64,000 bases of DNA from Flavobacteriaceae bacterium (GTDB taxonomy: Bacteria > Bacteroidota > Bacteroidia > Flavobacteriales > Flavobacteriaceae): the NCBI GenBank assembly GCA_028281065.1, contig JANQKN010000014.1:1-64000 (forward strand), in the 5' to 3' direction. Below are positions 46,613 through 63,217 of the stretch, in pieces. A model generated the notes under the pieces. That model was given only the letters and a program-made list of their open reading frames with translations. It did no database searches and was not told the DNA's origin. Position 1 is the stretch's first letter. Each line of letters begins with the position of its first letter. Made by a program: the position numbers and the translations under genes.

Positions 46613-47191
46613 TTACTTAACCCAATCAGAAAAATTATTGTACCCATCATCATCCTTCCAATCATACACGGGATAATCGGATGACAATCGATAAATTTTA
46701 TTTCGATGCTCTTCTTTTGCTCGGTGTTCCAAAGTCCACCCATCTAAATCTGGGTATTTAATCCACTTCCCTTCAATTAAATCGTGAAGTTTTAATCTCT
46801 TTCCATCCTTAGAAAAGGAATAACCTAAATATCTAAATGGATTATTGCCATTATTCTTGGTCTTCTTGTTTTTCCCTTTTATACCATTTATATGGACTCC
46901 AAAAATATGATTCCCTCGCTCCATACTTTTCATAATCTCATAACAAACCCATTTTCGGTCGAACGTTTTAGAACCAATAAGCACACACGTGTTCGTGGTA
47001 TTCTTTAATCCTTTATTGATTAAACGCTTAATAGCAATATCCCCATCTTTTTTAGCTGTTTCCCAAATGGAGGCATCAAAAAATCCTGCTTCTTCCCTAT
47101 TGTCCTTGGTAAGCCAATGATTCCTAACCACATTCGCCCTAAAATCTATTACATCCTGATAATGGAAACTGAAAAACACTCTTTTGGCCAT
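46613..47191 (-). CDS. ThsB-like TIR protein (last gene of the TIR/SLOG operon)
   Basis: A 192-residue protein with the ThsB/MTH538 TIR-like domain: MAKRVFFSFHYQDVIDFRANVVRNHW at the start, AGFFDASIWETAKKDGDIAIKRLI, then CVLIGSKTFDRKWVCYEIMKSMERGNHIFGVHING. The putative catalytic glutamate is E85 in the CYEI motif. ThsB proteins make cyclic ADP-ribose isomers from NAD after phage sensing. It has an insertion near residues 100-150 and ends in YDWKDDDGYNNFSDW, a tail shared with the protein at 49709. It starts two bases after the upstream gene's stop. Confidence 0.85.
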   Translation of the reverse strand: MAKRVFFSFHYQDVIDFRANVVRNHWLTKDNREEAGFFDASIWETAKKDGDIAIKRLINKGLKNTTNTCVLIGSKTFDRKWVCYEIMKSMERGNHIFGVHINGIKGKNKKTKNNGNNPFRYLGYSFSKDGKRLKLHDLIEGKWIKYPDLDGWTLEHRAKEEHRNKIYRLSSDYPVYDWKDDDGYNNFSDWVK

Positions 47192-47193
47192 GA

Positions 47194-47895
47194 TTAATCC
47201 AAATTTATATGTACGTCGTACAAGTCCTTGTCATCCTTAATCTTAATGGCCTTCTCAATGTACCAATTGTAATTTTTATCATAAATAAAGCTGTCCCATT
47301 GAACTGTTTTTATAAAAGATGATTCACTTGTGGTATGAATTTTTGTCCCATTACATTCTCTAAATTGTTTTTCTAAAATATTGAACATATTATCTTTCAA
47401 TATTTTAAAAAGTTGGCCAGTATGATGGGTAGTGCTGTTGCAAGCTGGGTTTGAAGTATAATACCAATCATACGTCCCTGTTTCATCGGGTAGGACAACA
47501 CCCAAAACAGCATTCATTTGTTTGGTATTACCACCAGTGGGCACTGTTCTTAAAGAGTATGATATTTCCCAAGGAATCCATTGTTCATTCTCACTTTCAT
47601 TTGTTTTCATGCCTTTGGAAATCATAACAATGGTAATACTGGATTGTCTTATCTTTCCCTTTAAAGCAGTTTCAATGGTAGAATCCGTGAACTCGGCTAA
47701 GCTTTCACCATCTTTTTCCCCTAAATTAATATTGTCCTCACCTATAATCTCCTGTAATTTATCTACATAATCACGAACCCGGGTGGCTCTTGGCTTTGAA
47801 AAAAAATTCCTTCCATCAAACTCTATTTCAGTCATATTCAATGATTTTACCTGTGTATCCTTATACTTATAAGACACAAAAACTTTTCTCCCCAT
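47194..47895 (-). CDS. TIR-like domain protein
   Basis: A 233-residue protein of the same TIR-like superfamily but a different subgroup. The first strand is RKVFVSYKYKD, followed by a long helical insertion (ATRVRDYVDKLQEII), then ITIVMISKGMKTNESENEQWIPWEISYSL, where E110 is the likely catalytic glutamate. The C-terminal half (SSFIKTVQWDSFIYDKNYNWYIEKA) has no recognised domain. The ATG shares one base with the stop of the SLOG gene, so translation is coupled. It may produce or respond to an NAD-derived signal. Confidence 0.8.
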   Translation of the reverse strand: MGRKVFVSYKYKDTQVKSLNMTEIEFDGRNFFSKPRATRVRDYVDKLQEIIGEDNINLGEKDGESLAEFTDSTIETALKGKIRQSSITIVMISKGMKTNESENEQWIPWEISYSLRTVPTGGNTKQMNAVLGVVLPDETGTYDWYYTSNPACNSTTHHTGQLFKILKDNMFNILEKQFRECNGTKIHTTSESSFIKTVQWDSFIYDKNYNWYIEKAIKIKDDKDLYDVHINLD

Positions 47896-48485
47896 TAGTT
47901 TAGTTTTTTCATCAATAATTCTTCAAATACAGACATGTAGGCATAATCGGATTCCAAACGGTCTATCCGGTTTTGTTGATTTTGATGTATTATCTTGGCC
48001 GCTGCACCCGTATTGGCCATGGGCAATACAATGGCTTCTGGGTGAAATTGCCTAAACATTTCGTATTCTGTTTCAACACCATCCATACCACCAATAAATA
48101 TCCCAGCACTAAATTCATGATTATAAAACATCAACTCCCGCATCAATCCTAGGCTTTGATCCCGGTCTCCATGAATTGGGGTCAGTACTATGTTCTCAAA
48201 TTTGTTATTGTCTTCCGGATAGTACTGTTCAAAAAACTTGCTTTGGTAAAGCGTCAAATGTTCTTGAATATTAATTTTCATTTTTTGCATTACGTAATAA
48301 ACCAAAGGTGTAATAGAGGGATGACCACCCCAAATTAAACGATGCTTAGGCAGTACAATGGATGTAAGTGCAATTACAGCATCCCTTATAGCAATAACAT
48401 CTGCCGTTTCATAATAGATTGCATCACGCTCTGGAAGCGGAATACTCGCAGAAAGGAAAATGTTCTTTAATTGTTTTGCAGCCAT
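47895..48485 (-). CDS. SLOG-domain nucleotide-binding protein
   Basis: A 196-residue Rossmann-type protein with a SLOG signature: NIFLSASIPLPERD (8-21), RLIWGGHPSITPLV (50-62), and FSAGIFIGGMDGVETEYEMF (126-144) with a later MANTGAAAKII. The GGHP and GGMDGVE motifs correspond to the nucleotide-binding loops of the LOG/Smf/TRPM-type family. In Thoeris the SLOG part of ThsA binds the TIR-made signal; here SLOG is a separate protein with no fused effector. It overlaps the TIR gene upstream by 19 bases and the one downstream by one base. Confidence 0.78.
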   Translation of the reverse strand: MAAKQLKNIFLSASIPLPERDAIYYETADVIAIRDAVIALTSIVLPKHRLIWGGHPSITPLVYYVMQKMKINIQEHLTLYQSKFFEQYYPEDNNKFENIVLTPIHGDRDQSLGLMRELMFYNHEFSAGIFIGGMDGVETEYEMFRQFHPEAIVLPMANTGAAAKIIHQNQQNRIDRLESDYAYMSVFEELLMKKLN

Positions 48486-49633
48486 GTCTCAAAGTTTTGC
48501 TTTTTCAGTGTTTTTACTTTTAGGTATACATTCAACCAATCCAAATGCTCCAACCACTTTTCCCTAATGCGTAAATCATCGAATATTAAGTGGATACTAT
48601 CTATTTCGTACTCAGAAATTTCTTGTCGCAACTTATCAGACTGGTTGCAATCCATGGATCGAGGGATGCCAATGGTTGGAATAAATATTCTCCTTTTATT
48701 ACCTCCCAGATCTTCTGTTAGATACCGTGCGGGTTGTAAATGAACTTCTTTCCCTTTTGTTCGTGCTAGGTTCGTGAATTCTGTAATTAAGTTATCCTGT
48801 CTCGCGGCAAGGTTTCTAGCCCTCATAGATTCAGCAGTATTTACAATTCTAGCAACACAACTATCAATAAGTTTAGAGGTGTCTTTAGAAGCATATTGCT
48901 CATCTACAAAATCTTCTTGCTGCAAAAAAATAGGTTCACTTATATGCGAAGTATTTTCCAAGGTATGGTCTGGCCAAACTACTTGAACTATTCCTATCTG
49001 CTTGGCATTTGCCTCTGCCAGTTCTTCCTTGCACCATTTACTGGTCATAAAGCCCTCGGTATTGAGCATTACAATTACATCGCAATCCGTCATACGATGC
49101 CATAGCTCTTCCTGAAAAAGCTCCCCCTGCTTAATAGAATGAGTGTCTAGGAAAACATCGAAATTATTCCGTTCCAGTGCCTCATACAATTGGATAGCTA
49201 CTGATGACGAATCATCTCTTTTGTAGCTCACAAATACTTTCCGGGAATGTCGTAGTTTGCCAAAGGACTCCAGTGCCAGATTCACTATTTTACTGTCAAC
49301 AGTAGCATCGTACTTTTGCCCATTGTAATTTTCCAACACTTTGGGTATTTCTTTACTGAAAGAATTTTCAAAAATTGGAAGTATTGGTGTTGCATCTTTT
49401 ATAAGCCTATTAACAAATGTGTGGTTTTTAAAATTTCCATTTGGACTACCAAAATAGAAACAGAAGGCTGGCTGATTTTCTTTATAATCTTGCGTAAAAT
49501 TTGCCGGTGTAACTACTAAAAAAGCACTCTCAGGCAATCTTAATTCCGAGACCTTTTCAAAAAATAGATCTTGAATTTTCTTTGAGTTCTCTCCAAGGTT
49601 ACCCAAAAAAATTAATTGATATTTATATTTCAT
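48467..49633 (-). CDS. Three-part TIR protein
   Basis: A 388-residue protein. Residues 1-125 form an unknown alpha/beta domain (YQLIFLGNLGENSKKIQDLFFEKVSEL). Residues 131-240 are a canonical TIR domain: RKVFVSYKRDDSSSVAIQLYEAL, NFDVFLDTHSIKQG and VIVMLNTEGFMTSKWCKEEL with the NAD-hydrolysing glutamate at about 204. Residues 260-388 form another uncharacterised domain. It is the only canonical (not ThsB-type) TIR of the operon. It overlaps the SLOG gene by 19 bases, so the two products are probably made together. Confidence 0.85.
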   Translation of the reverse strand: MKYKYQLIFLGNLGENSKKIQDLFFEKVSELRLPESAFLVVTPANFTQDYKENQPAFCFYFGSPNGNFKNHTFVNRLIKDATPILPIFENSFSKEIPKVLENYNGQKYDATVDSKIVNLALESFGKLRHSRKVFVSYKRDDSSSVAIQLYEALERNNFDVFLDTHSIKQGELFQEELWHRMTDCDVIVMLNTEGFMTSKWCKEELAEANAKQIGIVQVVWPDHTLENTSHISEPIFLQQEDFVDEQYASKDTSKLIDSCVARIVNTAESMRARNLAARQDNLITEFTNLARTKGKEVHLQPARYLTEDLGGNKRRIFIPTIGIPRSMDCNQSDKLRQEISEYEIDSIHLIFDDLRIREKWLEHLDWLNVYLKVKTLKKQNFETWLQNN

Positions 49634-49708
49634 GAGTGTATTTTTCTCTCATCTCTCCTAATAAATTATGACTTAAAATCATTTTCATTTCTATACAAAT
49701 GAACTATT

Positions 49709-50197
49709 CTATTTCCCAGCATCTTTGGCGGCTTGCTCAATCCAATCTCCCATATTGCTATAACCATTATCATTTACCCAATCATAGGTATTAAATCTCT
49801 CGAAGAAATATTTTTTATCGTCTAAACCATTTGTAAACAACGGACCAAATGTATTATCTCCTTTTTTGCTGGTATTCCCATCACTGTCTTTTATGTTATG
49901 AACATATATACCTAAAATTCCATTCCCTTTTTCCCAGCTCTTTTCAAGTTCGTATTTAATATAATCTCTGTTGCTAGTATCAGTTCCAATTAAAACTACA
50001 GTCACAGAAGTTCCATCAAGTTGCTCTCTAATCCATTTTTTAATCGCAGAATCTCCACCCTTTTTTATTTCTTCAAAATCTGCAGCGTCAATAAAACCTG
50101 CTGCTTTTCTATCTTGAGTTACCCAACTATTTCTTACGATATTTGCTCTCCAAACGTCGTTTGCATAATGAAAGCTGAAAAAAGTTCTTCTTGCCAT
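49709..50197 (-). CDS. ThsB-like TIR protein
   Basis: A 162-residue ThsB/MTH538-type TIR protein: MARRTFFSFHYANDVWRANIVRNSW, AAGFIDAADFEEIKKGGDSAIKKWI, VTVVLIGTDTSNRDYIKYELEKSWEKGNGILGIYVHNI. The likely catalytic glutamate is E83 in KYELEKS. It shares its N-terminus and its C-terminal YDW..DNGYSNMGDW with the 46613 protein, so the two are paralogues. 75 bases separate it from the next gene downstream, more than elsewhere in the operon. Confidence 0.87.
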   Translation of the reverse strand: MARRTFFSFHYANDVWRANIVRNSWVTQDRKAAGFIDAADFEEIKKGGDSAIKKWIREQLDGTSVTVVLIGTDTSNRDYIKYELEKSWEKGNGILGIYVHNIKDSDGNTSKKGDNTFGPLFTNGLDDKKYFFERFNTYDWVNDNGYSNMGDWIEQAAKDAGK

Positions 50198-50757: not shown

Positions 50758-52245
50758 TTAGTCCTTATTCACCTGTTCTCCTGCTGGTCTGTCAATTTGT
50801 TTTATTGGCGTACCTTTTACACTGTAGTCGATATAATATCCTTCATAGCCTAAAAGTTTTAAGATCACCCTGTTAAATAGGACTTCATAAGTTCTTGAGG
50901 AAACCAATTCACTATATAGTTTAGGTTTTTTAGAGTAATCTGAACTTCCATGAGCCATTTTATTTCTCAAAGCCAAGGACTTACTTTCCTTTTCACCAAT
51001 TTTAAGACCAATAAGCTCGAAAAACATGAGGGTTTTCTCATTAGGCCCTTTCCTAAAAGCCCCTTTAATCTTTCTTTTAATGATGTCATTTCCACTTACA
51101 CCTTGAAGCTTTGAAGAGATTGTTTTCAATTCTTTGTCAATCAGGGACAGGTATTCCTTCTCGGATAGATATTCGAAAGTCTTGATCTTTTTTAATTTGA
51201 AGTACTTCGCTATTATGGTTTCAAGAGCACTTGCCAGGATAGGAAGATTTGTTCCCAAAGGAGCATTGTTGGCAATAAATGCCTTATCAATGACTATACC
51301 CAGATAAAGTTCCTTTTGAAGCTCCAAATAAGCAGGAAGGTGAGAATTGAGGAGATAACCCAAATTGCCCCACTCGTATTGGTAATTGAACTTAATAGGA
51401 GGCATAGATTTATCTTCAGGGTACTCATAAAGGGAGATTGCAAAACGTTCTAATACCTTTTCCCCATCCAAGATGCTATACCCTATGTTTTGTAATTTAT
51501 TGCCCAATAAAAAACCAACGAAATTTCGTGTTCCATCTACCATTTGTTCATCCATATCCTTTACGTTACCCCGAAATTCTAGACAAAGGCCGCTAATATC
51601 ATTTGGGATTAAATTATCAGGAACCTTGCCAATGATGAAGTCGTGTTCTTTAAATCGTACCCTGCAAAAATCCCGCGAGGATGAACTTCCTTTTAGGTGT
51701 TCTTGGGTGTCGTCTTCAAGATCGATCCCAAGGCGAATCCTTTTTTTTCTTTTTTTTAAATACCTTTTTGTTGATCCATTAAAATTAGCGGGGATTCTTT
51801 TGCAAACAAACCATTGAAACCTTATTGGCTTCTCAATGAGATTTGGGTGGGTCTCAGTAACAATCTTTATTGAATCAAAAATGATTTCGGCTTCGGTTTT
51901 CATTGCCAACCCTTTTGGGTCCACCCCAGTTTGCGACACCCCACCTATAAAGCACTGATACATTTCAATGTAGTTGTTATTTACATCCCTTCCAGTAATT
52001 GTTTGACCTTCTATGATATTACCTTCACCAACAAAATCATCTCTGTCAATCTTTTCGAACATTTTTAAAGTACCGTTAATCTGACCCTTGAGTCTTAATC
52101 TGTCGTCCCTCCATACTAATATTGAATTGTCTTCTTTGAAGCCCCAGTCATTCTTTTCGAAGGTTAACTGGGATATCTCGATTGGGAATTCAATGTGTTC
52201 CCATTCCAGTTGCGGAATTTGAAATTCAATTGGGTCTATCATCAT
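50758..52245 (-). CDS. HEPN-domain protein, ApeA-like, candidate antiphage effector
   Basis: A 495-residue protein. The N-terminal 300 residues have a beta-rich ApeA-like or substrate-sensing region. The C-terminal domain has the HEPN motif R-x4-H in LALRNKMAHGSSDY (R427 to H432), preceded by helices typical of HEPN RNases (ASALETIIAKYF; MFFELIGLKIGEKES). HEPN proteins of this build often cut RNA upon infection. It is immediately followed by the orphan repeat and preceded, seven bases away, by the 398-residue gene. The two probably act together. Confidence 0.72.
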   Translation of the reverse strand: MMIDPIEFQIPQLEWEHIEFPIEISQLTFEKNDWGFKEDNSILVWRDDRLRLKGQINGTLKMFEKIDRDDFVGEGNIIEGQTITGRDVNNNYIEMYQCFIGGVSQTGVDPKGLAMKTEAEIIFDSIKIVTETHPNLIEKPIRFQWFVCKRIPANFNGSTKRYLKKRKKRIRLGIDLEDDTQEHLKGSSSSRDFCRVRFKEHDFIIGKVPDNLIPNDISGLCLEFRGNVKDMDEQMVDGTRNFVGFLLGNKLQNIGYSILDGEKVLERFAISLYEYPEDKSMPPIKFNYQYEWGNLGYLLNSHLPAYLELQKELYLGIVIDKAFIANNAPLGTNLPILASALETIIAKYFKLKKIKTFEYLSEKEYLSLIDKELKTISSKLQGVSGNDIIKRKIKGAFRKGPNEKTLMFFELIGLKIGEKESKSLALRNKMAHGSSDYSKKPKLYSELVSSRTYEVLFNRVILKLLGYEGYYIDYSVKGTPIKQIDRPAGEQVNKD

Positions 52246-52252
52246 CTATAGT

Positions 52253-53449
52253 TCAACTTTCAGTTTTGTTATTGGTTTCAGGGGATATCGAAATTTTCTT
52301 CCTTTGAATCTTCTTGCTTAGATTTATGTTTCGTTCGTTAGGCTTTTTTCGTCCATATACTTTTTCCCCAAGCCAGAGAATGTCCTTATATTCTTTGCTA
52401 TAGAAGTAATCGTAGACCTCCAATTTATCGAAGTGGTTAGGTATTTTTCCAAAAATGAAAATTTCACCCATTCCGAATTCATACTCTTGATCGTTTCCGC
52501 CTACCTGTTTGTTAAAATAGGCATCAAAAACCTCAAGTTCATTGATGGTCAAGAGTGGGACATCGGTAGTTAGTTCTGCAACTAAATTCTCTTCAACATA
52601 TATCTTGATTCGGGACTTATATGTCTTCGTTACTTCAACTGAAACATCTACCAATTGCATTTTACCATATTCAATAGGCTGTTCTGCACTTATCAAATGA
52701 TCGTTGCCAAAACTATCGACAATCAAAAAATGTAATCTCCCATGATTCAATATCAGTGAAAACCTATTGGGGTTATTTGGTAATTGGTAGTCAAAAAGAA
52801 AAATATCACCCTTTACTTTCTTTTCGGTTAGATAGAAATGGATATAAAAGTCGATGTCAGTAACCGTTTTTAACAAGCTTATTCCAAGATCAGTGGTTAG
52901 ATCGGATAATTGAATTACGAATTGATTCAACATCGGCTGTCCATTGAATCCAATGGACAGCATCTCGTATAGGTATCTATGTGTAGTTCTTGAATAATGT
53001 GCACCCCCATATCTATTTGCCAGTTCTTCAATAATTCTTTTGAGCTTGAATTTTCTTCCCTTATATGTGAGCAAATCTATTTCAAGATATTCGGACAATG
53101 CTATCTTGATATGCTTCGGGTGTGATTTATACCTACTCGGGGAATTAGAGGATATTCGGAATGTCATCCCTTCGGTAAATTGTGGTGCATCCTCTTCAAA
53201 AGTATCTGGGATATGGTAGATTTCCAATTCCTTCTCCATGAAAGAAGCCACTTCGAACAGGAGCGGGGACATTTTCTTGCTTCTCTCTGTTAAAAGGCTT
53301 CGTAATTGCCCATATATAACAGAAATCTGATAGTAATGGCCTTTAAATATCAATGCCCTGCTGTCAGTAATAATCCTTAGGGCATAGTACAATTCTTTTA
53401 TTCTTTCGTGCCCGCTTTTTGTCACATGCTGAAAATGCTCTTCTTTCAT
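52253..53449 (-). CDS. Protein of unknown function, partner of the HEPN gene
   Basis: A 398-residue protein. The first 100 residues are helical (HERIKELYYALRIITDSRALIFKGHYYQISVIYGQLRSLLTE), then mixed, and residues 220-330 are beta-rich with a concanavalin/LamG-like look (GDIFLFDYQLPNNPNRFSLILNHGRLHFLIVDSFG, DVSVEVTKTYKSRIKIYVEENLVAELTT). No catalytic motif was recognised. The seven-base gap to the HEPN gene suggests one transcript. It may be an antitoxin, sensor or scaffold; this is inference. Confidence 0.6.
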   Translation of the reverse strand: MKEEHFQHVTKSGHERIKELYYALRIITDSRALIFKGHYYQISVIYGQLRSLLTERSKKMSPLLFEVASFMEKELEIYHIPDTFEEDAPQFTEGMTFRISSNSPSRYKSHPKHIKIALSEYLEIDLLTYKGRKFKLKRIIEELANRYGGAHYSRTTHRYLYEMLSIGFNGQPMLNQFVIQLSDLTTDLGISLLKTVTDIDFYIHFYLTEKKVKGDIFLFDYQLPNNPNRFSLILNHGRLHFLIVDSFGNDHLISAEQPIEYGKMQLVDVSVEVTKTYKSRIKIYVEENLVAELTTDVPLLTINELEVFDAYFNKQVGGNDQEYEFGMGEIFIFGKIPNHFDKLEVYDYFYSKEYKDILWLGEKVYGRKKPNERNINLSKKIQRKKISISPETNNKTES

Positions 53450-53564: not shown

Positions 53565-53644
53565 GGGGAGAGTAAAAAGTAAAGATAGGATAATTAGGTG
53601 ATAGGATGCAAACTCTCTATCATTTCATGCAGGTTCTCTAGGTC
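53565..53644. repeat. 80-bp direct repeat, right copy (3' end of the intact recombinase)
   Basis: Includes the last 16 codons and stop of the second recombinase (stop at 53594-53596) and 29 bases beyond. Matches 50662-50741. The copies enclose the HEPN module (2.8 kb). Confidence 0.85.
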
Positions 53645-54490
53645 GTCTTGCTGGTAACGTTCGGTAGAGGAAATATAACGGTGCCCTGCCATATACTGAA
53701 CCTCACGGATATTATGGTGTTTTAGCCAATGGGTAATGACCGATGCTCGTACCTGTCTTACGTCTTTAACATTGAGATTGATCCTACGTAGTTTTTTAAA
53801 CAAAGCATATAATAAAGGAAAACGTTCCCCGCCAACGGGGATAAGTGCATCGGTGTGGCAGTTTATTTCATTCTGAAGAGCTGGTCTTGATTCCTCAATG
53901 AATTTTGAAAACGAAAGGATCTGCTGGGATTTGATCTCCAGTTCCCTTGCATTGGTCTTTCGGGTTGAGGGAATATAGATTTTCCCTTTTTCCAGATTGA
54001 TATGTTCCAGTTTCAGTGCCTTTAACGAGGTAGCGTTCAATCCTTGATATACCATCAATCCCGTAATCACCTTATCCCTTACGGCAACCGTTGGTAAATT
54101 GGGTAATTGGATATTTCGGGTTTGTAAACTGTAGAACAAATCCTCCAGTTCTTCGTATTCCAAAAGATTATGATTGACAGTGCGTTTTACCCCTCGAATG
54201 TTCATGTTCTGGAACGGGTTGTCCCCTCGATGGTTTTCATCGATCAGGTAATTGAAAAATACCTTCAATGCACCAATCTGGTGTTTGGCCGTTTTCCTGC
54301 TCCTTGTCTTCCCTTTGATTGGTGTTTGGATATACTTAGCATACGACAGACAGTCTTTATAATCTATGGTTTCCAATTCATGTCCTTTGGATTCACACCA
54401 GCCAACAAAATAATCACGGTATCGCAGATAACATTCTATTGTGGTTGGAGCATAGTTGTTTTCAACTAGATAAGTTTCATAGTTCTTCAT
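53594..54490 (-). CDS. Tyrosine recombinase, second of a pair, with degenerate active site
   Basis: A 298-residue phage-integrase-family protein with a SAM-like N-terminal domain (residues 1-90) and a C-terminal catalytic domain. The nucleophile Tyr is retained at about 279 (STERYQ) with GH at 269-270 and Arg248 in RQVRAS. The first catalytic Arg is replaced: the segment usually reading GLR is GLN at 150-152. The usual HxxR reads RQVR. It may therefore need its neighbour for activity. The start ATGA overlaps the first recombinase gene's stop. Confidence 0.85.
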   Translation of the reverse strand: MKNYETYLVENNYAPTTIECYLRYRDYFVGWCESKGHELETIDYKDCLSYAKYIQTPIKGKTRSRKTAKHQIGALKVFFNYLIDENHRGDNPFQNMNIRGVKRTVNHNLLEYEELEDLFYSLQTRNIQLPNLPTVAVRDKVITGLMVYQGLNATSLKALKLEHINLEKGKIYIPSTRKTNARELEIKSQQILSFSKFIEESRPALQNEINCHTDALIPVGGERFPLLYALFKKLRRINLNVKDVRQVRASVITHWLKHHNIREVQYMAGHRYISSTERYQQDDLENLHEMIESLHPIT

Positions 54491-55437
54491 AATCGAATTG
54501 GCTTTTCTTTTCTGTCCCCTCGCACTGCGAGATGGGTGTATAGTTGGGTTGATTCCAAAGATGAGTGACCGAGAAACTGACTGGTGGATTTCAACGGCAC
54601 ATTGTTTTCCAAAAGGTGGGTGGCGATGGAGTGCCTTAGTGTATGGAGCGTGATCCCCTTTTCGATGATGGTTTCGTTTTCTGTGGCATCGATGATTGCG
54701 TTCAAACGGTTGGCAAAAGTGAGTTCACCCATTCGCCTTCCCCAGTGGCTTAGGAACAGTGCATCGGTCTGGTAATTCTTGATGAATTCCAAACGCCCTT
54801 CATATAGGTATTCTTCCAACATTGAAAGGTTATGCGAGTTGATCGGAACCAAACGTTCTTTGTAATTCTTGCCTTTCCGAACATGTACACGCCCTTTTTC
54901 AAAAAGGATATCATCGCAGTTAAGGCCAACGGCCTCACTTCTCCTAAGTCCCAAGCTATAGAGCACAACCAATATGGCACGGTCACGCATCCTGAAATGC
55001 TCGCCCATGTGCGACCAATCACAGGCTTCGAAAAGTTCCTTGATCTCGGATTGAGTAAGTATCCGTTTGTTTTCGGTATAATCGGTCTTTTCCCCCTTGA
55101 GGTGGATTCCGAATTTTACATTTGCCTTATGCTCCTTCAGATATTTTAGGAACAGTTTCAATGCCTGTTGGTGTTTGTTGAGATAGGCTTTGGATAGCCC
55201 ACCGCCAAAACGCTCATTTTCCCGAACCGATAACTGGCCGTAGTATTCCTGGACAAGTTTAGTGGTCACGTGGCCCAAATGTTTGTGGCCGTTCCCTTCA
55301 AGGAAATAGAAGAATTCCTGTAAGTGGTTCGGAAGGGATATTAAGGTAGATTCTGCATAACCCAAGACATCCAACCATCCCTTATAGGATTCCAGAAGGG
55401 CGATAAATGTTTCGTTTCTAAGCCTTAGTCTCTTCAA
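54487..55437 (-). CDS. Tyrosine recombinase/integrase, first of a pair, intact active site
   Basis: A 316-residue recombinase of XerC/D type. The N-terminal core-binding domain (residues 10-105) is followed by the catalytic domain with R165 (YSLGLRRSE), K190 region, H265-R268 (LHTLRHSIATHLL), H291 (FLGHSSL) and Y300 (TQLYTHL). All six catalytic positions look functional. It is likely to mobilise the element; the overlap with the degenerate recombinase suggests a heterodimer, as with XerC/XerD. Confidence 0.92.
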   Translation of the reverse strand: MKRLRLRNETFIALLESYKGWLDVLGYAESTLISLPNHLQEFFYFLEGNGHKHLGHVTTKLVQEYYGQLSVRENERFGGGLSKAYLNKHQQALKLFLKYLKEHKANVKFGIHLKGEKTDYTENKRILTQSEIKELFEACDWSHMGEHFRMRDRAILVVLYSLGLRRSEAVGLNCDDILFEKGRVHVRKGKNYKERLVPINSHNLSMLEEYLYEGRLEFIKNYQTDALFLSHWGRRMGELTFANRLNAIIDATENETIIEKGITLHTLRHSIATHLLENNVPLKSTSQFLGHSSLESTQLYTHLAVRGDRKEKPIRL

Positions 55438-57204: not shown

Positions 57205-57235
57205 AAACACATTAATTAATAAAATTAGTGTGTTT
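57205..57235. promoter_or_regulatory. 31-bp near-palindrome in the divergent promoter region
   Basis: AAACACA (57205-57211) pairs with TGTGTTT (57229-57235), followed inward by TAATT with AATTA; centred at 57220. It sits between the ATPase and XRE-type regulator genes, overlapping promoter elements on both sides. It is the likely operator of the XRE protein. Confidence 0.6.
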
Positions 57236-57259
57236 TTTGGTGTTTACAGGTTTCTGCCC

Positions 57260-57267
57260 TACATTTG
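57260..57267 (+). promoter_or_regulatory. -7 box of the XRE regulator gene
   Basis: TACATTTG matches TAnnTTTG, with TTTG at 57236-57239 twenty bases upstream. On the other strand TATATTTG (57187-57180) serves the ATPase gene, so the two promoters are divergent around the palindrome. Confidence 0.65.
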
Positions 57268-57287
57268 AAGTGAAAAAATTTCAATTT

Positions 57288-57692
57288 ATGACACCCATAC
57301 AGCAATTGATGATCGATAACCTGAAGTTCTACCGCAAGGAGAACAGACTGACCCAGGCAGAAGTGGCCAAACGGTCAGACATGCTTGCCAGTACCTATTC
57401 ACGTCTGGAGACAGGACAGGTGTCCCCGCAATTGCAGACCCTCGAGCGGGTATGTGATGCCATAGGCATTGCCGTGGTGGATCTGTTCCTTTCCCGTGAG
57501 GTATCAGATAAAACAGTAGTTCAGAAACTGGAGATGATCGGTGGACTATCCGACTACAACAAGAGTGTGGTGGAGATTCTTTTGGATTCCATTATAGAAA
57601 AAGATAAGCTCGAAAAGTCCCAAGTGGTCAAAATGAATAAACGGTTGGAGGAATTGGGAAGAATCCGGGATGTAGAATCCAGAAATTCTTAA
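57288..57692 (+). CDS. XRE-family helix-turn-helix regulator
   Basis: About 134 residues from the ATG at 57288 (MTPIQQLMIDNLKFYRKE). An XRE helix-turn-helix at residues 10-65 (LTQAEVAKRSDMLASTYSRLETGQVSPQLQTLERVCDAIGIAVVDLF) is followed by a helical tail. The frame is open upstream to 57228, but that part overlaps the promoter. It is divergent from the ATPase gene and probably represses both promoters through the 31-bp palindrome. Confidence 0.88.
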   Translation: MTPIQQLMIDNLKFYRKENRLTQAEVAKRSDMLASTYSRLETGQVSPQLQTLERVCDAIGIAVVDLFLSREVSDKTVVQKLEMIGGLSDYNKSVVEILLDSIIEKDKLEKSQVVKMNKRLEELGRIRDVESRNS

Positions 57693-57693
57693 T

Positions 57694-58446
57694 ATGATAC
57701 TCCCTGAAGATTCCTACATAAGAACACCACCATTGGAACTCTCCCCAAATCAAGTGGTAACTTTCAACGCTATGACCCATGCCCTTGATGCCTGTGAAAT
57801 ATCACACAAAAGATTAATAAATTCTCTTTCCGAACTTTCTGAAAAACAGCCATCAAATTTAGAGCCTTTGGATATTCCAACTATAGTATTAGATGTCAAT
57901 CAAATTATTGGTCATGCCCATTTATTCAAAAAGATTATTGTGAAAGAATTTGATGTTGATCAAAATGAAGAAATGTTTCAGGAAATAAACAAAGGAAAGA
58001 ACTTGAGGGATTCGAATCAGCATTTCGATGAACGCCTATTTGACAAGTATTCCGATGAATCTTCTTCAGTGAATGGATATTTGACTTGGCGAAAAAAATA
58101 TCCAGGTACCGATCGTGTTTCTATTTTTGGGGCCCGTCCAGGGTCATTAATAGGAGACACCCAAATAAAGGTATCGAATGAAAATTTTGATCATGAAGAA
58201 TTGGATCCCATTATCCAGAGGATCGAGTTTACAGCAATGGCTCGAAAAGGAAACAGAAAGTCCTATACCTATGAATCAGAAAGTATATTGATAAATAAGG
58301 TAATATTGGAACTCAAATCTTGGGTAAATCATATTGAACCACAACTGGAAAAACAATTTAAAAAAATAAATTTTTCGAAAAGAAATATTAAAGACGTAAT
58401 AATTACCCTTGACGGTTATGTAAACAATAACACAACCGATCCTTAA
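57694..58446 (+). CDS. Hypothetical protein cotranscribed with the XRE regulator
   Basis: A 250-residue soluble protein starting two bases after the XRE gene stop. The N-terminal half is helical with repeated Ile/Leu/Glu pattern (FNAMTHALDACEISHKRLINSLSELSEKQ and NQIIGHAHLFKKIIVKEFDV), the rest is mixed with a Lys-rich end. No known domain was identified; a possible HEPN-like helical bundle cannot be confirmed, since no Rx4-6H motif is evident. The close coupling suggests a function with the mobile element. Confidence 0.6.
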   Translation: MILPEDSYIRTPPLELSPNQVVTFNAMTHALDACEISHKRLINSLSELSEKQPSNLEPLDIPTIVLDVNQIIGHAHLFKKIIVKEFDVDQNEEMFQEINKGKNLRDSNQHFDERLFDKYSDESSSVNGYLTWRKKYPGTDRVSIFGARPGSLIGDTQIKVSNENFDHEELDPIIQRIEFTAMARKGNRKSYTYESESILINKVILELKSWVNHIEPQLEKQFKKINFSKRNIKDVIITLDGYVNNNTTDP

Positions 58447-58484: not shown

Positions 58485-61178
58485 CTATTCATTGATGTGA
58501 CCCATCAAATCCACATAGGCCCAATAATATTTGTCGTTTCTTGATTCCAGTATCTTCTTACTAATGAAAGACCTTATCTTTCTATGATCCGACATTATCT
58601 TTTTAATAGCATAATATGATTTCCTATATGCTATGTAGAACCAATGGATATTCAGTCCGCCTTCTTCCAACAAATCAGGATTTATAAGGAAATCATAATA
58701 ATCGGATCTTCCCAAGAATTGTTTTAAATGATTATAAGGATCATCATAATGCATGTACACATGGTTTAAAAAAATATTCAAAATATCCAAGTCTTGTATT
58801 TCCCTATCGATTGTATCAGATTGGTAACGTTTTTCTTCCTGACCAAATGCTTTGACAACCTGTTCCAAAAAAATGGAATACGATTTTTTGGAAATCTGAA
58901 TTACCCCTTCAATACAGAACCTATCATAAACCCTCCCATCAAAACCTGAATCATTGTTTACAATTTCATTGACCTTTTCAAATGCAAGGGTCTTTATATT
59001 ATCCGGGGCCAATTTATATAGTTTATGGAGAACATATGATCGATAATATCCCGTCTCTTTCTCTATGTCTTCAGAAAGGAAAATCTCCCATTGGGCATTG
59101 CTAAGCTTTATGGATTTAAACTGTTTCATTAAATCAAATATGTTTGCAATCTTAAAAGAGATGTCACGTTTTCCATTGAACATGGCTTTGATGTATGTAG
59201 ATGCACTTTTCTTGTTCAAGGCCTCTATCCTGTTCTGGATCAAGGAACCAAAGAGGGTTTCTTTTCTATCCCTTTGCATTTCGTCTTCAGGGTAAACCCC
59301 GTATATCTTCAAAATAAGGCTATTGGTCATTGTTTTGGGAAAATCAATATAACCCAACAAAAAAGCAATCTTTTTTAACTGATCAAGGTAATGTTTCCGA
59401 TACGGATGTCCTAGACTGAGCTTGTTTACCTGTGGAAAGCTGTCCACTATGGGGTCGAAAAACTCATAAATATTTCGAATACTGTCTTTATGAAAGTTCA
59501 ATGCCTTTACCCCCAACTCATGAAAAAACACTCTATAATCCTCAATTTTGATATAGGGGAATGTGGTCTTGAAGAGGTAATCGTTTATGTAGTAAAGTAC
59601 ATCCCTATCTTTTGAGGCGTATAAATTCTGTTTGAAGGTGATTTTGGCAAACCGCTTTATATTCGTATAGTAATCGAAAAACAGTCCATTGTTCCAAATG
59701 GTTCGATTTACTTCTGACCATCTTATAACATTTTTCCAATCAATGTTGGAATTATAGGAATGTCCAAGTCCATTATGTATATCGTATCTTTTTTTTACAC
59801 CCTCCAGATCTTCGCTTAAATCGAAAAACTTGTAATCAAAGAATTTGGAATATTTGAGGTATCCGATGATAGATGTAATCCCTTTTTCCAAGACTTGGTT
59901 CTCTTTGGTCAGCTTAATTCTTTTTCTTTCCTCTTCAAATCTGTCATCACTTGCAAACCACATTCGTTCTAGAATAAAGATATTTTCCCTTGCTATGGCA
60001 TAAATGGTAGGATACTCTTTTTCATTTACCTCTGATAAGATTTTTTGGGTTGTATTTAACGCATCGTAAAAATCCTTGATCTTAAATTGATAAAAAGCTG
60101 TCTTGAGCAATTGTTTAGGAGAATTATCCAAAGTCCATCCCTCTATCTTTGATCTTACGTCCAAAATTGAACATCTAAAAAGTGTACACTCACCACATTG
60201 ACAGAGGCCTTTTGGTTTTGGGATATCTATTTTTATATCCACTTTCTTTCTTCCATAACCCACATTATAAACAAGGTTCTCATTGAGCTTTATCAGTATA
60301 GCTTCAAAATCGGAAACTTCTTCATCCGATTCAAAAAATGCTCTATTGATCTCAATACCATTTGACTCATGGGTAACCAACGCAGCTTCAAAAAAATCGA
60401 AGAGTTTTTTGTTGTCGGTTTTAAGAGTAGTTCCATTAAAATACGTTTGGGAACCTTCGTTTGACTTGAATGGATAGATGTTTGACAGGAAGGATAGTGG
60501 AATAAAATCCAACTCCCGATAATAATATTTGATAGCTTCTTTGAGCTGGTCGAAAATGTCTTTGTTATTAACCTGTAACCTAAACGCTTTCCAATTGTAC
60601 AATTCGTATCTGTTTAATCCAGCCGTACGAGCCCTATGAATTCCCAGTTCCTTATATAAAGTTTTCCTTAAATCAGTGGAGAGTTTTATGGAAAGTCCAT
60701 TGTCCCTAAACTTCTCGAAAATATCTGGGTGTAACGAATAACTATTTTTACTCCTGAAGTGTGAGTCCAGGGAAACCAACCAAAAATCGGTGCCCCTGTC
60801 CAAGGTCAGCAAGGTATTCAATATAATAGTATCCTCATAGTTGTTTGCGTCGTGGTTCGGGGCTTTACCGCTTGTCACCCATTCAATTATTCCTTCAACT
60901 TCAGTCTTTATTCTGAATGATAAATCAAATATCCCAAAAATCGTCTGAACGATAGAATCCAAATCCTGTTGCGATACCCTACCGTTTTTCTTCAGGGTTT
61001 CCTCAAGGACCTTTTCCAATTTTCTCTTGAATTCAAGTTCCACAGAGTCTGGGAGAAGTATAGAAAGTCGATTGTTCTTTACATTCTCGGACAATTCCTC
61101 GAGCAAATCGAATTCAAGATTCTCAATTATTCCAAGCCAGATATTGGTGTCAAGTGCTAGATTGTTTGTTGTCCCCAT
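58485..61178 (-). CDS. Large PIN-domain protein (897 residues)
   Basis: The N-terminal 145 residues form a PIN-type nuclease domain with acidic residues in the expected order: D10 (LALDTNIW), E49 (VELEF), E115/D116 (NNYEDTIIL) and D138 (LVSLDSHF). This resembles the DUF4935 PIN group. The remaining 750 residues are mostly helical with no known domain. A Cys cluster (GLCQCGECTLFRC, about residues 325-340) might bind zinc. The protein is unusually long for a PIN protein, so the rest could sense or bind target RNA. It has no obvious antitoxin next to it. Confidence 0.72.
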   Translation of the reverse strand: MGTTNNLALDTNIWLGIIENLEFDLLEELSENVKNNRLSILLPDSVELEFKRKLEKVLEETLKKNGRVSQQDLDSIVQTIFGIFDLSFRIKTEVEGIIEWVTSGKAPNHDANNYEDTIILNTLLTLDRGTDFWLVSLDSHFRSKNSYSLHPDIFEKFRDNGLSIKLSTDLRKTLYKELGIHRARTAGLNRYELYNWKAFRLQVNNKDIFDQLKEAIKYYYRELDFIPLSFLSNIYPFKSNEGSQTYFNGTTLKTDNKKLFDFFEAALVTHESNGIEINRAFFESDEEVSDFEAILIKLNENLVYNVGYGRKKVDIKIDIPKPKGLCQCGECTLFRCSILDVRSKIEGWTLDNSPKQLLKTAFYQFKIKDFYDALNTTQKILSEVNEKEYPTIYAIARENIFILERMWFASDDRFEEERKRIKLTKENQVLEKGITSIIGYLKYSKFFDYKFFDLSEDLEGVKKRYDIHNGLGHSYNSNIDWKNVIRWSEVNRTIWNNGLFFDYYTNIKRFAKITFKQNLYASKDRDVLYYINDYLFKTTFPYIKIEDYRVFFHELGVKALNFHKDSIRNIYEFFDPIVDSFPQVNKLSLGHPYRKHYLDQLKKIAFLLGYIDFPKTMTNSLILKIYGVYPEDEMQRDRKETLFGSLIQNRIEALNKKSASTYIKAMFNGKRDISFKIANIFDLMKQFKSIKLSNAQWEIFLSEDIEKETGYYRSYVLHKLYKLAPDNIKTLAFEKVNEIVNNDSGFDGRVYDRFCIEGVIQISKKSYSIFLEQVVKAFGQEEKRYQSDTIDREIQDLDILNIFLNHVYMHYDDPYNHLKQFLGRSDYYDFLINPDLLEEGGLNIHWFYIAYRKSYYAIKKIMSDHRKIRSFISKKILESRNDKYYWAYVDLMGHINE

Positions 61179-61304: not shown

Positions 61305-61943
61305 TTATTTGAAACTGCTGTTATTATGTTCCCTTATTTCCCTTAGAAGTTCCGAATCCAAGTCCCATTCATGGATTACCTCTTTAATGTCGACCGACCT
61401 AAAAAGCAAAATGAAGGAAATGCAAGCAAGCAAAAGCATAACAGCCAAAGAGTCTTCTTTCAAAAAGTCAAATGAAACATAGATGCTCCCCTTCACTAAA
61501 ATATTCAAAATCATGGCCAGAAACAGATATCCAGAAAACTCGTAGGCATTTATCTTCTCTTCCCTGTCTTTCTTCAATTCATTGTAATAAGCATAAAGGG
61601 TGGAATTATCCTTTGCAATGGAAAAATCACGGACTTTGATCAACAGGATTTCTTTGCTTTTTGAAATCTCCCTGACCTTTGGCAAAACTTTCACCATAGC
61701 TTTTGAGAACAGGAAGTCAAAAAAGGGCATCAACACCCTTATTAATTTGAAGGTCAAAAGGCTTACGACCATAAACGGGAGTAAAAGTATGAGCCACTTA
61801 AAATTCTTCATTGCAATCTCTATATCCAGATAAGTAAGAAAGGTATCTATCTGTACTATCAAAAAAGTAGCAATGACCCAAAAGGATACCCTGAATATAT
61901 TTGAATTGGATGGGTCAAACGATTTTTTAAGAATATCCAGCAT
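61305..61943 (-). CDS. Membrane protein of unknown function, last of three-gene unit
   Basis: A 212-residue protein with two hydrophobic segments near residues 20-70 (VSFWVIATFLIVQIDTFLTYL; WLILLLPFMVVSLLTFKLI), then a charged cytoplasmic part and two more membrane segments near 140-180 (YLFLAMILNILVKGSIYVSF; LAVMLLLACISFILLF). No family is recognised. It starts 32 bases after the 413-residue gene and is probably cotranscribed. Confidence 0.62.
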   Translation of the reverse strand: MLDILKKSFDPSNSNIFRVSFWVIATFLIVQIDTFLTYLDIEIAMKNFKWLILLLPFMVVSLLTFKLIRVLMPFFDFLFSKAMVKVLPKVREISKSKEILLIKVRDFSIAKDNSTLYAYYNELKKDREEKINAYEFSGYLFLAMILNILVKGSIYVSFDFLKEDSLAVMLLLACISFILLFRSVDIKEVIHEWDLDSELLREIREHNNSSFK

Positions 61944-61975
61944 AATATTTGTGTGTTTTTAATGAAGGGTAAAGT

Positions 61976-63217
61976 TCAAAAAATGTCCTTTATCCATTCC
62001 AATAATTTGGGGCTCAAAAAAGAAAAAACCTGTCCAGCCAAAGCGAACAAGAGTTGGGGCAGGTTATAAATATTTGGGTTGATCGGTTTAGAAGCGTCGA
62101 AAAAATCAGTCAAGCTTTTTAAACGGTAAAGCTGTGAGGCATTCTCGGAGTTTATGATGTTTTCCAAACTTTTTTCATTGACCGAAATATCCATCCTCCC
62201 GTAAAAGGAAGAGAATATCCAGTTGGTTGCAAGGTCCTGGCTTCTGTTGAGTAACCTTGTGTAGATGTATTGGGGTGTAAAGAGTGTAACAAACCCAACC
62301 AATGAAATAAGGGAAAGCACACCGACAGAAAGCCAGTCCCAAATGGAAAACAGCATTACCCCAAAAAGGGAGACCCCAATGAACCAATTAAAACTGGTTA
62401 TGAGATAAAGCCGGGAAAGTTTCCCCAACCTTAGTTTAATCAGGTTCGGTATTGGAATTACGGGAAGCTTCAACAGATCCATTAAAAAGAAAAAATTAAC
62501 GAACAATATCCTCAGGCAGGTTATCAGTATGGAGGATATAACCAGTATATAAAAACCAAACAGGGCGAACTTCACCTTAAGGTGTACTGACTCGTACCAA
62601 CCATTGACCTTAAATGAGATCAACTCGAGTGAGAGAAGGTTAAGTTTATTGTAAGTCGTCTCATCATAAAGTTTATAGTACAAAAGCATCCCAAGAAAGA
62701 TGCTTGTTGCTATGGTGATAAAAAGGATAATCCTGTTATTCGAAAGCCTTTTGAACCAAGTATCCAAAAAATAACGGTATTCACCGTCACTGACCATGAA
62801 ACAGGGCCTGAGGCTGGATAGAGAACTATGTATACCCTTACTGCTGAACCTAATGGTCAGAATGGAAAGGAATATCCCAAAACTCATAAGGTAAACAGCC
62901 AAGGTGTTGATGTAATTACCATGGAAATCGATTGTATATGAAACCACAAGGCCGATCGTGTAAACCAGAGCTGATATAAGGATTGCACTCAAGAAATCAG
63001 GTAATCCAAAAAGATCAAAAATCCAGTCCAGCCAAGTCCTGTAATCCTTTGCTTGGGTTTCATATTCCCTATAATTGAAATCATTGTCCTTTTTCTGGAG
63101 GACATATTTTATGTCGATCGTACTGGAAACACTCGATAGGTCACCAATGAAAATCTTATACAACAATAAGATTATCGATTTCAGGTACAAAAGGGCAAAT
63201 GAAAAAAAACCTCTCAC
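61976..63217 (-). CDS. Polytopic membrane protein of unknown function
   Basis: A 413-residue protein with about eight hydrophobic segments (for example FLSAILISALVYTIGLVVSY; IILFITIATSIFLGMLLYY; FALFGFYILVISSILITC). Hydrophilic ends contain no recognised domain. It starts with ATGA overlap at the methyltransferase gene's stop, so the two are coupled. Function unknown; possibly a membrane effector or transporter of the accessory region. Confidence 0.62.
   Translation of the reverse strand: MRGFFSFALLYLKSIILLLYKIFIGDLSSVSSTIDIKYVLQKKDNDFNYREYETQAKDYRTWLDWIFDLFGLPDFLSAILISALVYTIGLVVSYTIDFHGNYINTLAVYLMSFGIFLSILTIRFSSKGIHSSLSSLRPCFMVSDGEYRYFLDTWFKRLSNNRIILFITIATSIFLGMLLYYKLYDETTYNKLNLLSLELISFKVNGWYESVHLKVKFALFGFYILVISSILITCLRILFVNFFFLMDLLKLPVIPIPNLIKLRLGKLSRLYLITSFNWFIGVSLFGVMLFSIWDWLSVGVLSLISLVGFVTLFTPQYIYTRLLNRSQDLATNWIFSSFYGRMDISVNEKSLENIINSENASQLYRLKSLTDFFDASKPINPNIYNLPQLLFALAGQVFSFLSPKLLEWIKDIF

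Follow-up and report, generated by a model that had tools for sequence, protein, structure and literature searches.

A PIN-domain protein from a Flavobacteriaceae mobile island with a C-terminal region related to the sensor of the anti-phage sirtuin DSR2

What might be the function of an 897-residue protein that starts with a PIN domain, continues with some 700 further residues and is encoded without an antitoxin? This question is raised by a gene of a Flavobacteriaceae bacterium (GCA_028281065.1, contig JANQKN010000014.1, positions 1–64,000 of the forward strand; this 64-kb stretch, the whole of the DNA analysed, is termed the window). The very long PIN-domain reading frame noticed in the original prediction turned out to be real and intact, with PIN_12 at the N-terminus as the sole Pfam domain above cut-off, and the remainder is mostly helical, as had been claimed. 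The contrast drawn there with PIN toxins of 130–150 residues was overstated, as further PIN_12 proteins from related genomes comprise 405–560 aa, with different C-termini and none with the sensor described below. Searched on its own, the 897-aa sequence gave no match in PADLOC-DB 2.0.0, NCBIfam or the PDB sequences. The protein is divided as follows:

58485–61178, minus strand: complete gene for the 897-aa PIN/DSR2-like sensor protein (intact open reading frame; full-length homologue, L002, 42% identical)
60639–61178, minus strand: N-terminal putative PIN effector domain, residues 1–180 (Pfam PIN_12 above cut-off; AlphaFold2 pLDDT 86; VapC-type fold matches with weak E-values)
58485–60611, minus strand: C-terminal DSR2-like sensor module, residues 190–897 (profile matches to DSR2 only; hhalign with controls; top 47 Foldseek matches)

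The C-terminal ~700 residues are almost certainly homologous to the middle and C-terminal sensor region of DSR2, the defence-associated sirtuin 2 of Bacillus subtilis (known structures: PDB 8WKX, 8WKS, 8WFN, 8K98). A profile built from four family sequences gave a weak DSR2 match among the PDB sequences (E = 2.3e-4), and in the same search a TPR assignment of the middle region found nothing beyond E = 0.06–0.75 matches to designed proteins, among them several TPRs. A profile of 13 nuclease-type members, none bearing SIR2, matched DSR2 at E = 2.8e-8, with the next sequence at 0.38. Inclusion of two SIR2 relatives lowered the value to 1.4e-13; the best chain was a C-terminal fragment, and the matched stretch corresponds to residues 360–1001 of full-length DSR2. 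Alignment of the family with two DSR2 sequences by hhalign yielded E = 3.3e-14 over 525 columns, compared with 0.85 for reversed DSR2 and 0.06 or worse for 20 column shuffles. Such shuffled and reversed controls were included because these proteins are AT-rich, rich in Lys and Asn, and helical, a composition also reflected in the high HMMER bias of 47 bits; among 700 sequence shuffles, none scored better than E = 42 in HMMER. Sequence identity between the window protein and DSR2 is only ~14%, and a direct bridge is provided by the SIR2-bearing relative L019, which matches the window protein in plain BLASTP at 2.9e-8. An AlphaFold model of the protein, built without templates (pLDDT 78, pTM 0.65), was compared with the PDB using Foldseek. 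Here, the fold search of the long C-terminal region that had been proposed earlier returned DSR2 chains only among the top 47: all 47 matches at E <= 0.001 were DSR2 chains (best 3.4e-12), and the first other match followed at 5e-3. The best DSR2 chain devoid of the SIR2 part, a C-terminal chain, reached a Foldseek TM score of 0.64 relative to its own length.

The core of DSR2 consists of four SIR2 domains. Tail tube protein is bound as a monomer by the middle and C-terminal domains, and this binding alters their conformation and turns the NADase on (PMC11087589, PMC10981675); tail tube protein docked on these domains thus activates SIR2 (PMC11087589, PMC10981675, PMC10973363). By analogy, the C-terminal ~700 residues of the window protein would act as sensor and the PIN domain, in place of DSR2's SIR2 NADase, as effector, so that the same input would yield RNA cleavage. 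In the resting state, the PIN domain may be kept inactive, probably within a DSR2-like oligomer. Upon infection, a freshly synthesised structural protein of the phage, with the tail tube protein as leading candidate, would dock in the sensor groove and the C-terminal solenoid ring, and the ensuing conformational change would free the PIN domain to cut cellular RNA, thereby halting phage production by the infected cell (abortive infection). We consider it likely that the protein is a single-gene anti-phage receptor of this kind, combining a PIN effector for nuclease output with a DSR2-type sensor. Two sequence features of the sensor module merit attention:

58626–58700, minus strand: most conserved C-terminal motif, YYxxL...W846...Y (family alignment)
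60186–60203, minus strand: C326-x-C328-xx-C331 cluster, a mark of the Bacteroidota sensor branch, absent from Bacillota DSR2, L017 and L030

The identity of the trigger is a more delicate matter. The main tail-tube contacts of DSR2 (L495, L497, L498) lie in a DSR2-specific stretch outside the columns common to the family, so the trigger may differ from the tail tube protein, and for this reason our confidence in a sensor of phage proteins is well above that in a sensor of the tail tube protein. The latter, based on analogy with DSR2, is a tentative assignment that we hold to be possible. There is close to an even chance that the same receptor–effector design responds to another phage protein, such as capsid, portal or a different tail part, or to a change in the host; beyond the position of the primary contacts, the identity of just 12–18% between most members and the window protein would fit sensors under diversifying pressure. 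What speaks against another trigger is that the overall fold is retained, together with the C-terminal ring in which DSR2 accommodates the tail-tube loop, and that W846, the counterpart of DSR2 W958, is invariant in 20 of 20 sequences; W958 is located in this ring, and the tail-tube contact L966 follows eight residues later.

The cysteine cluster of the original prediction, written there as CQCGEC, is present as well, but belongs to the sensor module and is not peculiar to the PIN protein: CxCxxC is kept in 16 of 18 members from Bacteroidota, whatever their effector (SIR2, DUF4365, SMEK, MmeI_N or PIN), and is missing from the two Bacillota DSR2s and the sister pair L017/L030. Only the three cysteines of CxCxxC are conserved, with C336 falling outside the motif, and no fourth metal ligand was identified. 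Taken together, the window protein resembles DSR2 in being a single-protein system with an N-terminal effector, a homologous helical sensor and the conserved W958/W846 motif. It differs by the CxCxxC cluster, the low identity, the location of the primary tail-tube contacts outside the shared columns, and by a PIN domain in the position of the SIR2 NADase, with no SIR2 hit in Pfam. Since the SIR2 domain is absent, the protein is not a DSR2; judged by its sequence, it is a PIN-bearing member of a wider family that shares DSR2's sensor.

Relatives were gathered from whole genomes, first by sequence and then by profiles. The family is rare and patchy: it was detected in 5 of 299 genomes sampled across the window's family, in 8 of 299 from G590's genus and in 4 of 296 across the phylum, and the gene is absent from eight other genomes of the window's genus. 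Relatives with the same C-terminal region occur in Flavobacteriaceae, Chryseobacterium and Pedobacter; named carriers are Pontimicrobium aquaticum, Chryseobacterium defluvii, Pedobacter alluvionis and a Flavobacteriales bacterium. Searches with the sequence of the window protein alone retrieved nothing from GTDB contigs, plasmids, phages or the PDB. Viral contigs gave no match with the four-sequence profile, nor did viral contigs and phages with a DSR2 fragment as query; the viral scans thus gave no sign of a phage-borne copy. In plasmids, the DSR2 fragment had one match, a Priestia DSR2. Two weak early matches (L003, L004) were dropped as they lay in interrupted frames or inside unrelated genes. 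Among the members, the C-terminal ~700 residues align end to end, whereas the N-terminal 160–260 residues stem from unrelated families:

PIN: window protein, L002, L005, L030
DUF4365: L006, L011, L013, L015, L016 (Pfam); L029 by similarity
MmeI_N: L020, L021 (Pfam); L023 by similarity
SMEK_N: L022 (Pfam)
SIR2_2: L019, L025 (Pfam)
Mrr-like: L017 (by eye, no Pfam hit)
without assignment: L031

That effectors have been exchanged within the sensor family can hardly be doubted. The Mrr-like L017 and the PIN-bearing L030, sisters in the tree at 100/100, share 36% identity over residues 166–872/235–945 and none before. Forcing the four PIN members into a single clade was rejected (AU test, p = 1.4e-8, on a tree with long branches), which argues that PIN was joined to, or lost from, the sensor more than once. 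In one genome, two paralogous sensor proteins adjoin (L043, 2117–7692), one with an Mrr-like and the other with an MmeI_N-like effector.

Regarding the effector of the window protein itself, PIN_12 (PF16289) covers residues 9–73 with E = 8.8e-8 and 33.2 bits against a cut-off of 32. When the PIN part was modelled with AlphaFold (pLDDT 86), the best PDB matches of the model were VapC-type PIN proteins, with probabilities of 0.95–0.99 and E-values of 8e-3 or worse. The acidic residues are:

61149–61151, minus strand: D10, first PIN acid, in a DTN motif (invariant in five aligned PIN relatives)
61032–61034, minus strand: E49, second PIN acid (likewise invariant)
60831–60833, minus strand: D116, third PIN acid (likewise invariant)
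60765–60767, minus strand: D138, probable fourth PIN acid (PIN alignment; two residues later in L005 and L030)

The acid set as predicted thus stood for D10, E49 and D116, which are unchanged in all five aligned PINs despite their divergence, while D138 varies in position, being common only to the window protein and its closest homologue. Two remote PIN_8-like sequences were left out of this alignment owing to poor alignment of their second half. Loss of the PIN acids among homologues had been named beforehand as evidence against the prediction. Many homologues indeed lack a PIN domain, since another effector replaces it, but those that keep it retain the first three acids. The protein hence combines the two hallmarks of a PIN nuclease, the fold and a cluster of three to four acids, with D138 or the acid two residues further on as the fourth. 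PIN domains with such acids are usually RNases, as in VapC and related families, and from its fold we infer that the PIN domain of the window protein cuts RNA. That it is instead degenerate or acts on DNA, the protein working by binding or by DNA cleavage, appears unlikely to us: the fourth acid shifts among members and related members bear PD-(D/E)xK-type nuclease domains, but three acids are invariant in five divergent PINs and domains with these acids are, as said, mostly RNases.

The gene sits in a mobile island with defence genes. Two further genomes of the genus are syntenic with the window up to ~37.85 kb, and over much of the window beyond this break the GC content falls from ~0.42 to ~0.35. 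Further along, two gene groups mark the island:

46613–50197, minus strand: Thoeris-like cluster of ThsB-type TIR proteins, a TIR_2 protein and a SLOG cluster3 protein
53594–55437, minus strand: two tyrosine recombinases (Pfam Phage_integrase)

Beyond the window, the island continues with a relaxase, a coupling protein and a further integrase. In the Thoeris-like cluster, three TIR proteins are of the ThsB type, the TIR_2 protein matches a ThsB model at 5e-129 and the SLOG protein belongs to LD_cluster3; no SIR2 ThsA was evident beside them, and the cluster may be a variant of Thoeris that has several sensors and uses another effector. Between it and the recombinases (50758–53449), two proteins of 495 and 398 aa are encoded that have no significant Pfam or PADLOC match. 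Convergent to the PIN gene lie an XRE regulator (154 aa) and then a 250-aa protein (57228–58446), the latter without Pfam hit and with a weak AbiTi match (E = 0.017); the two might form a regulated toxin or defence pair of their own. On the strand of the PIN gene and upstream of it (61305–63217), there are two probable membrane proteins without Pfam hits, which were not seen next to homologues.

Comparison of the homologous loci revealed no antitoxin-like partner recurring beside the relatives, as the prediction had it, and the lack of any neighbour recurring at most loci argues for a self-contained gene. It is very improbable that the protein is a toxin–antitoxin-like PIN RNase controlled by a neighbour, the XRE regulator or the convergent 250-aa protein, rather than by a phage protein: the closest homologue, L002, does have an XRE gene directly upstream in the same orientation, and the window gene has its convergent pair, but no neighbour is conserved across the loci compared, the XRE gene of the window is on the opposite strand, the 250-aa protein proved unrelated to a HEPN protein near L002, and a DSR2-type sensor would be an internal control module. 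VapC toxins share with the window protein the PIN core and its acids, as do PIN_12 proteins, but VapC measures 130–150 aa and comes with a VapB antitoxin, whereas the window gene has no conserved partner. The homology to the DSR2 sensor, the exchange of effectors, the absence of a conserved partner and the location among mobile and defence genes support the preferred reading, in which PIN is the effector of a self-contained defence protein; the RNA-targeting part of the original proposal derives from the PIN fold.

As assigned from sequence, the sensor is joined to PIN and, in relatives, to five or more further kinds of enzyme, which suggests one sensor with interchangeable weapons. DUF4365, SMEK, Mrr and SIR2 are known as interchangeable effectors from short-Argonaute systems (PMC10810196, PMC12205087). 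The likeness to these systems (SPARSA, SPARDA, SPARTA, APAZ proteins) ends there, as the window family has no Argonaute, guide or APAZ domain and its sensor would be a protein-binding helical solenoid. Avs/AVAST proteins are STAND NTPases that act as receptors, recognise conserved structural proteins of phages and vary in their N-terminal effectors. The window family would be comparable in its ligands and in the variety of its effectors, but no Pfam hit in any member indicates an NTPase domain. On balance we lean towards the view that the DSR2 sensor represents a large undescribed class of modular, NTPase-less receptors for phage proteins. This class would parallel Avs without being STAND, and a single solenoid that senses tail proteins would be combined with at least six types of effector (PIN RNase, DUF4365, Mrr, MmeI-like, SMEK, SIR2). 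If so, one and the same signal of intrusion could lead to cleavage of RNA, cleavage of DNA or loss of NAD+, and DSR2, described in the papers cited above as a SIR2 system, would be one case of a wider receptor family with exchangeable effectors. Many 'hypothetical PIN/DUF4365/SMEK proteins' of Bacteroidota would then become candidate phage sensors with a testable class of trigger, and the sensor–effector boundary would offer a direct route to how ligand binding reaches unrelated enzymes. Literature searches, which extended neither to preprints, including bioRxiv, nor to most subscription journals, found no combination of DSR2 with PIN (together with SIR2 and tail tube) or with DUF4365, and no description of a PIN/DSR2-sensor family was recognised from titles and abstracts.

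Neighbours of other family members include a type IIG restriction enzyme at L047 (PADLOC) and a C5 methylase with a UvrD-like helicase at L008; AbiE-like, Wadjet-like, CHAT- and caspase-like neighbours at homologous loci were seen by eye in ORF lists only. A possible Wadjet-like operon, again assigned by eye, lies nine bases upstream of a DUF4365 family member (L042, 481–8072), and neither of the two Wadjet-like proteins compared with PADLOC scored a hit. Finally, adjacent and convergent to two different family members are long proteins that by eye appear related (L013, 10634–13900; L018, 1965–3347) and might represent a recurrent neighbour; the former has a DUF4297-like N-terminus by appearance.
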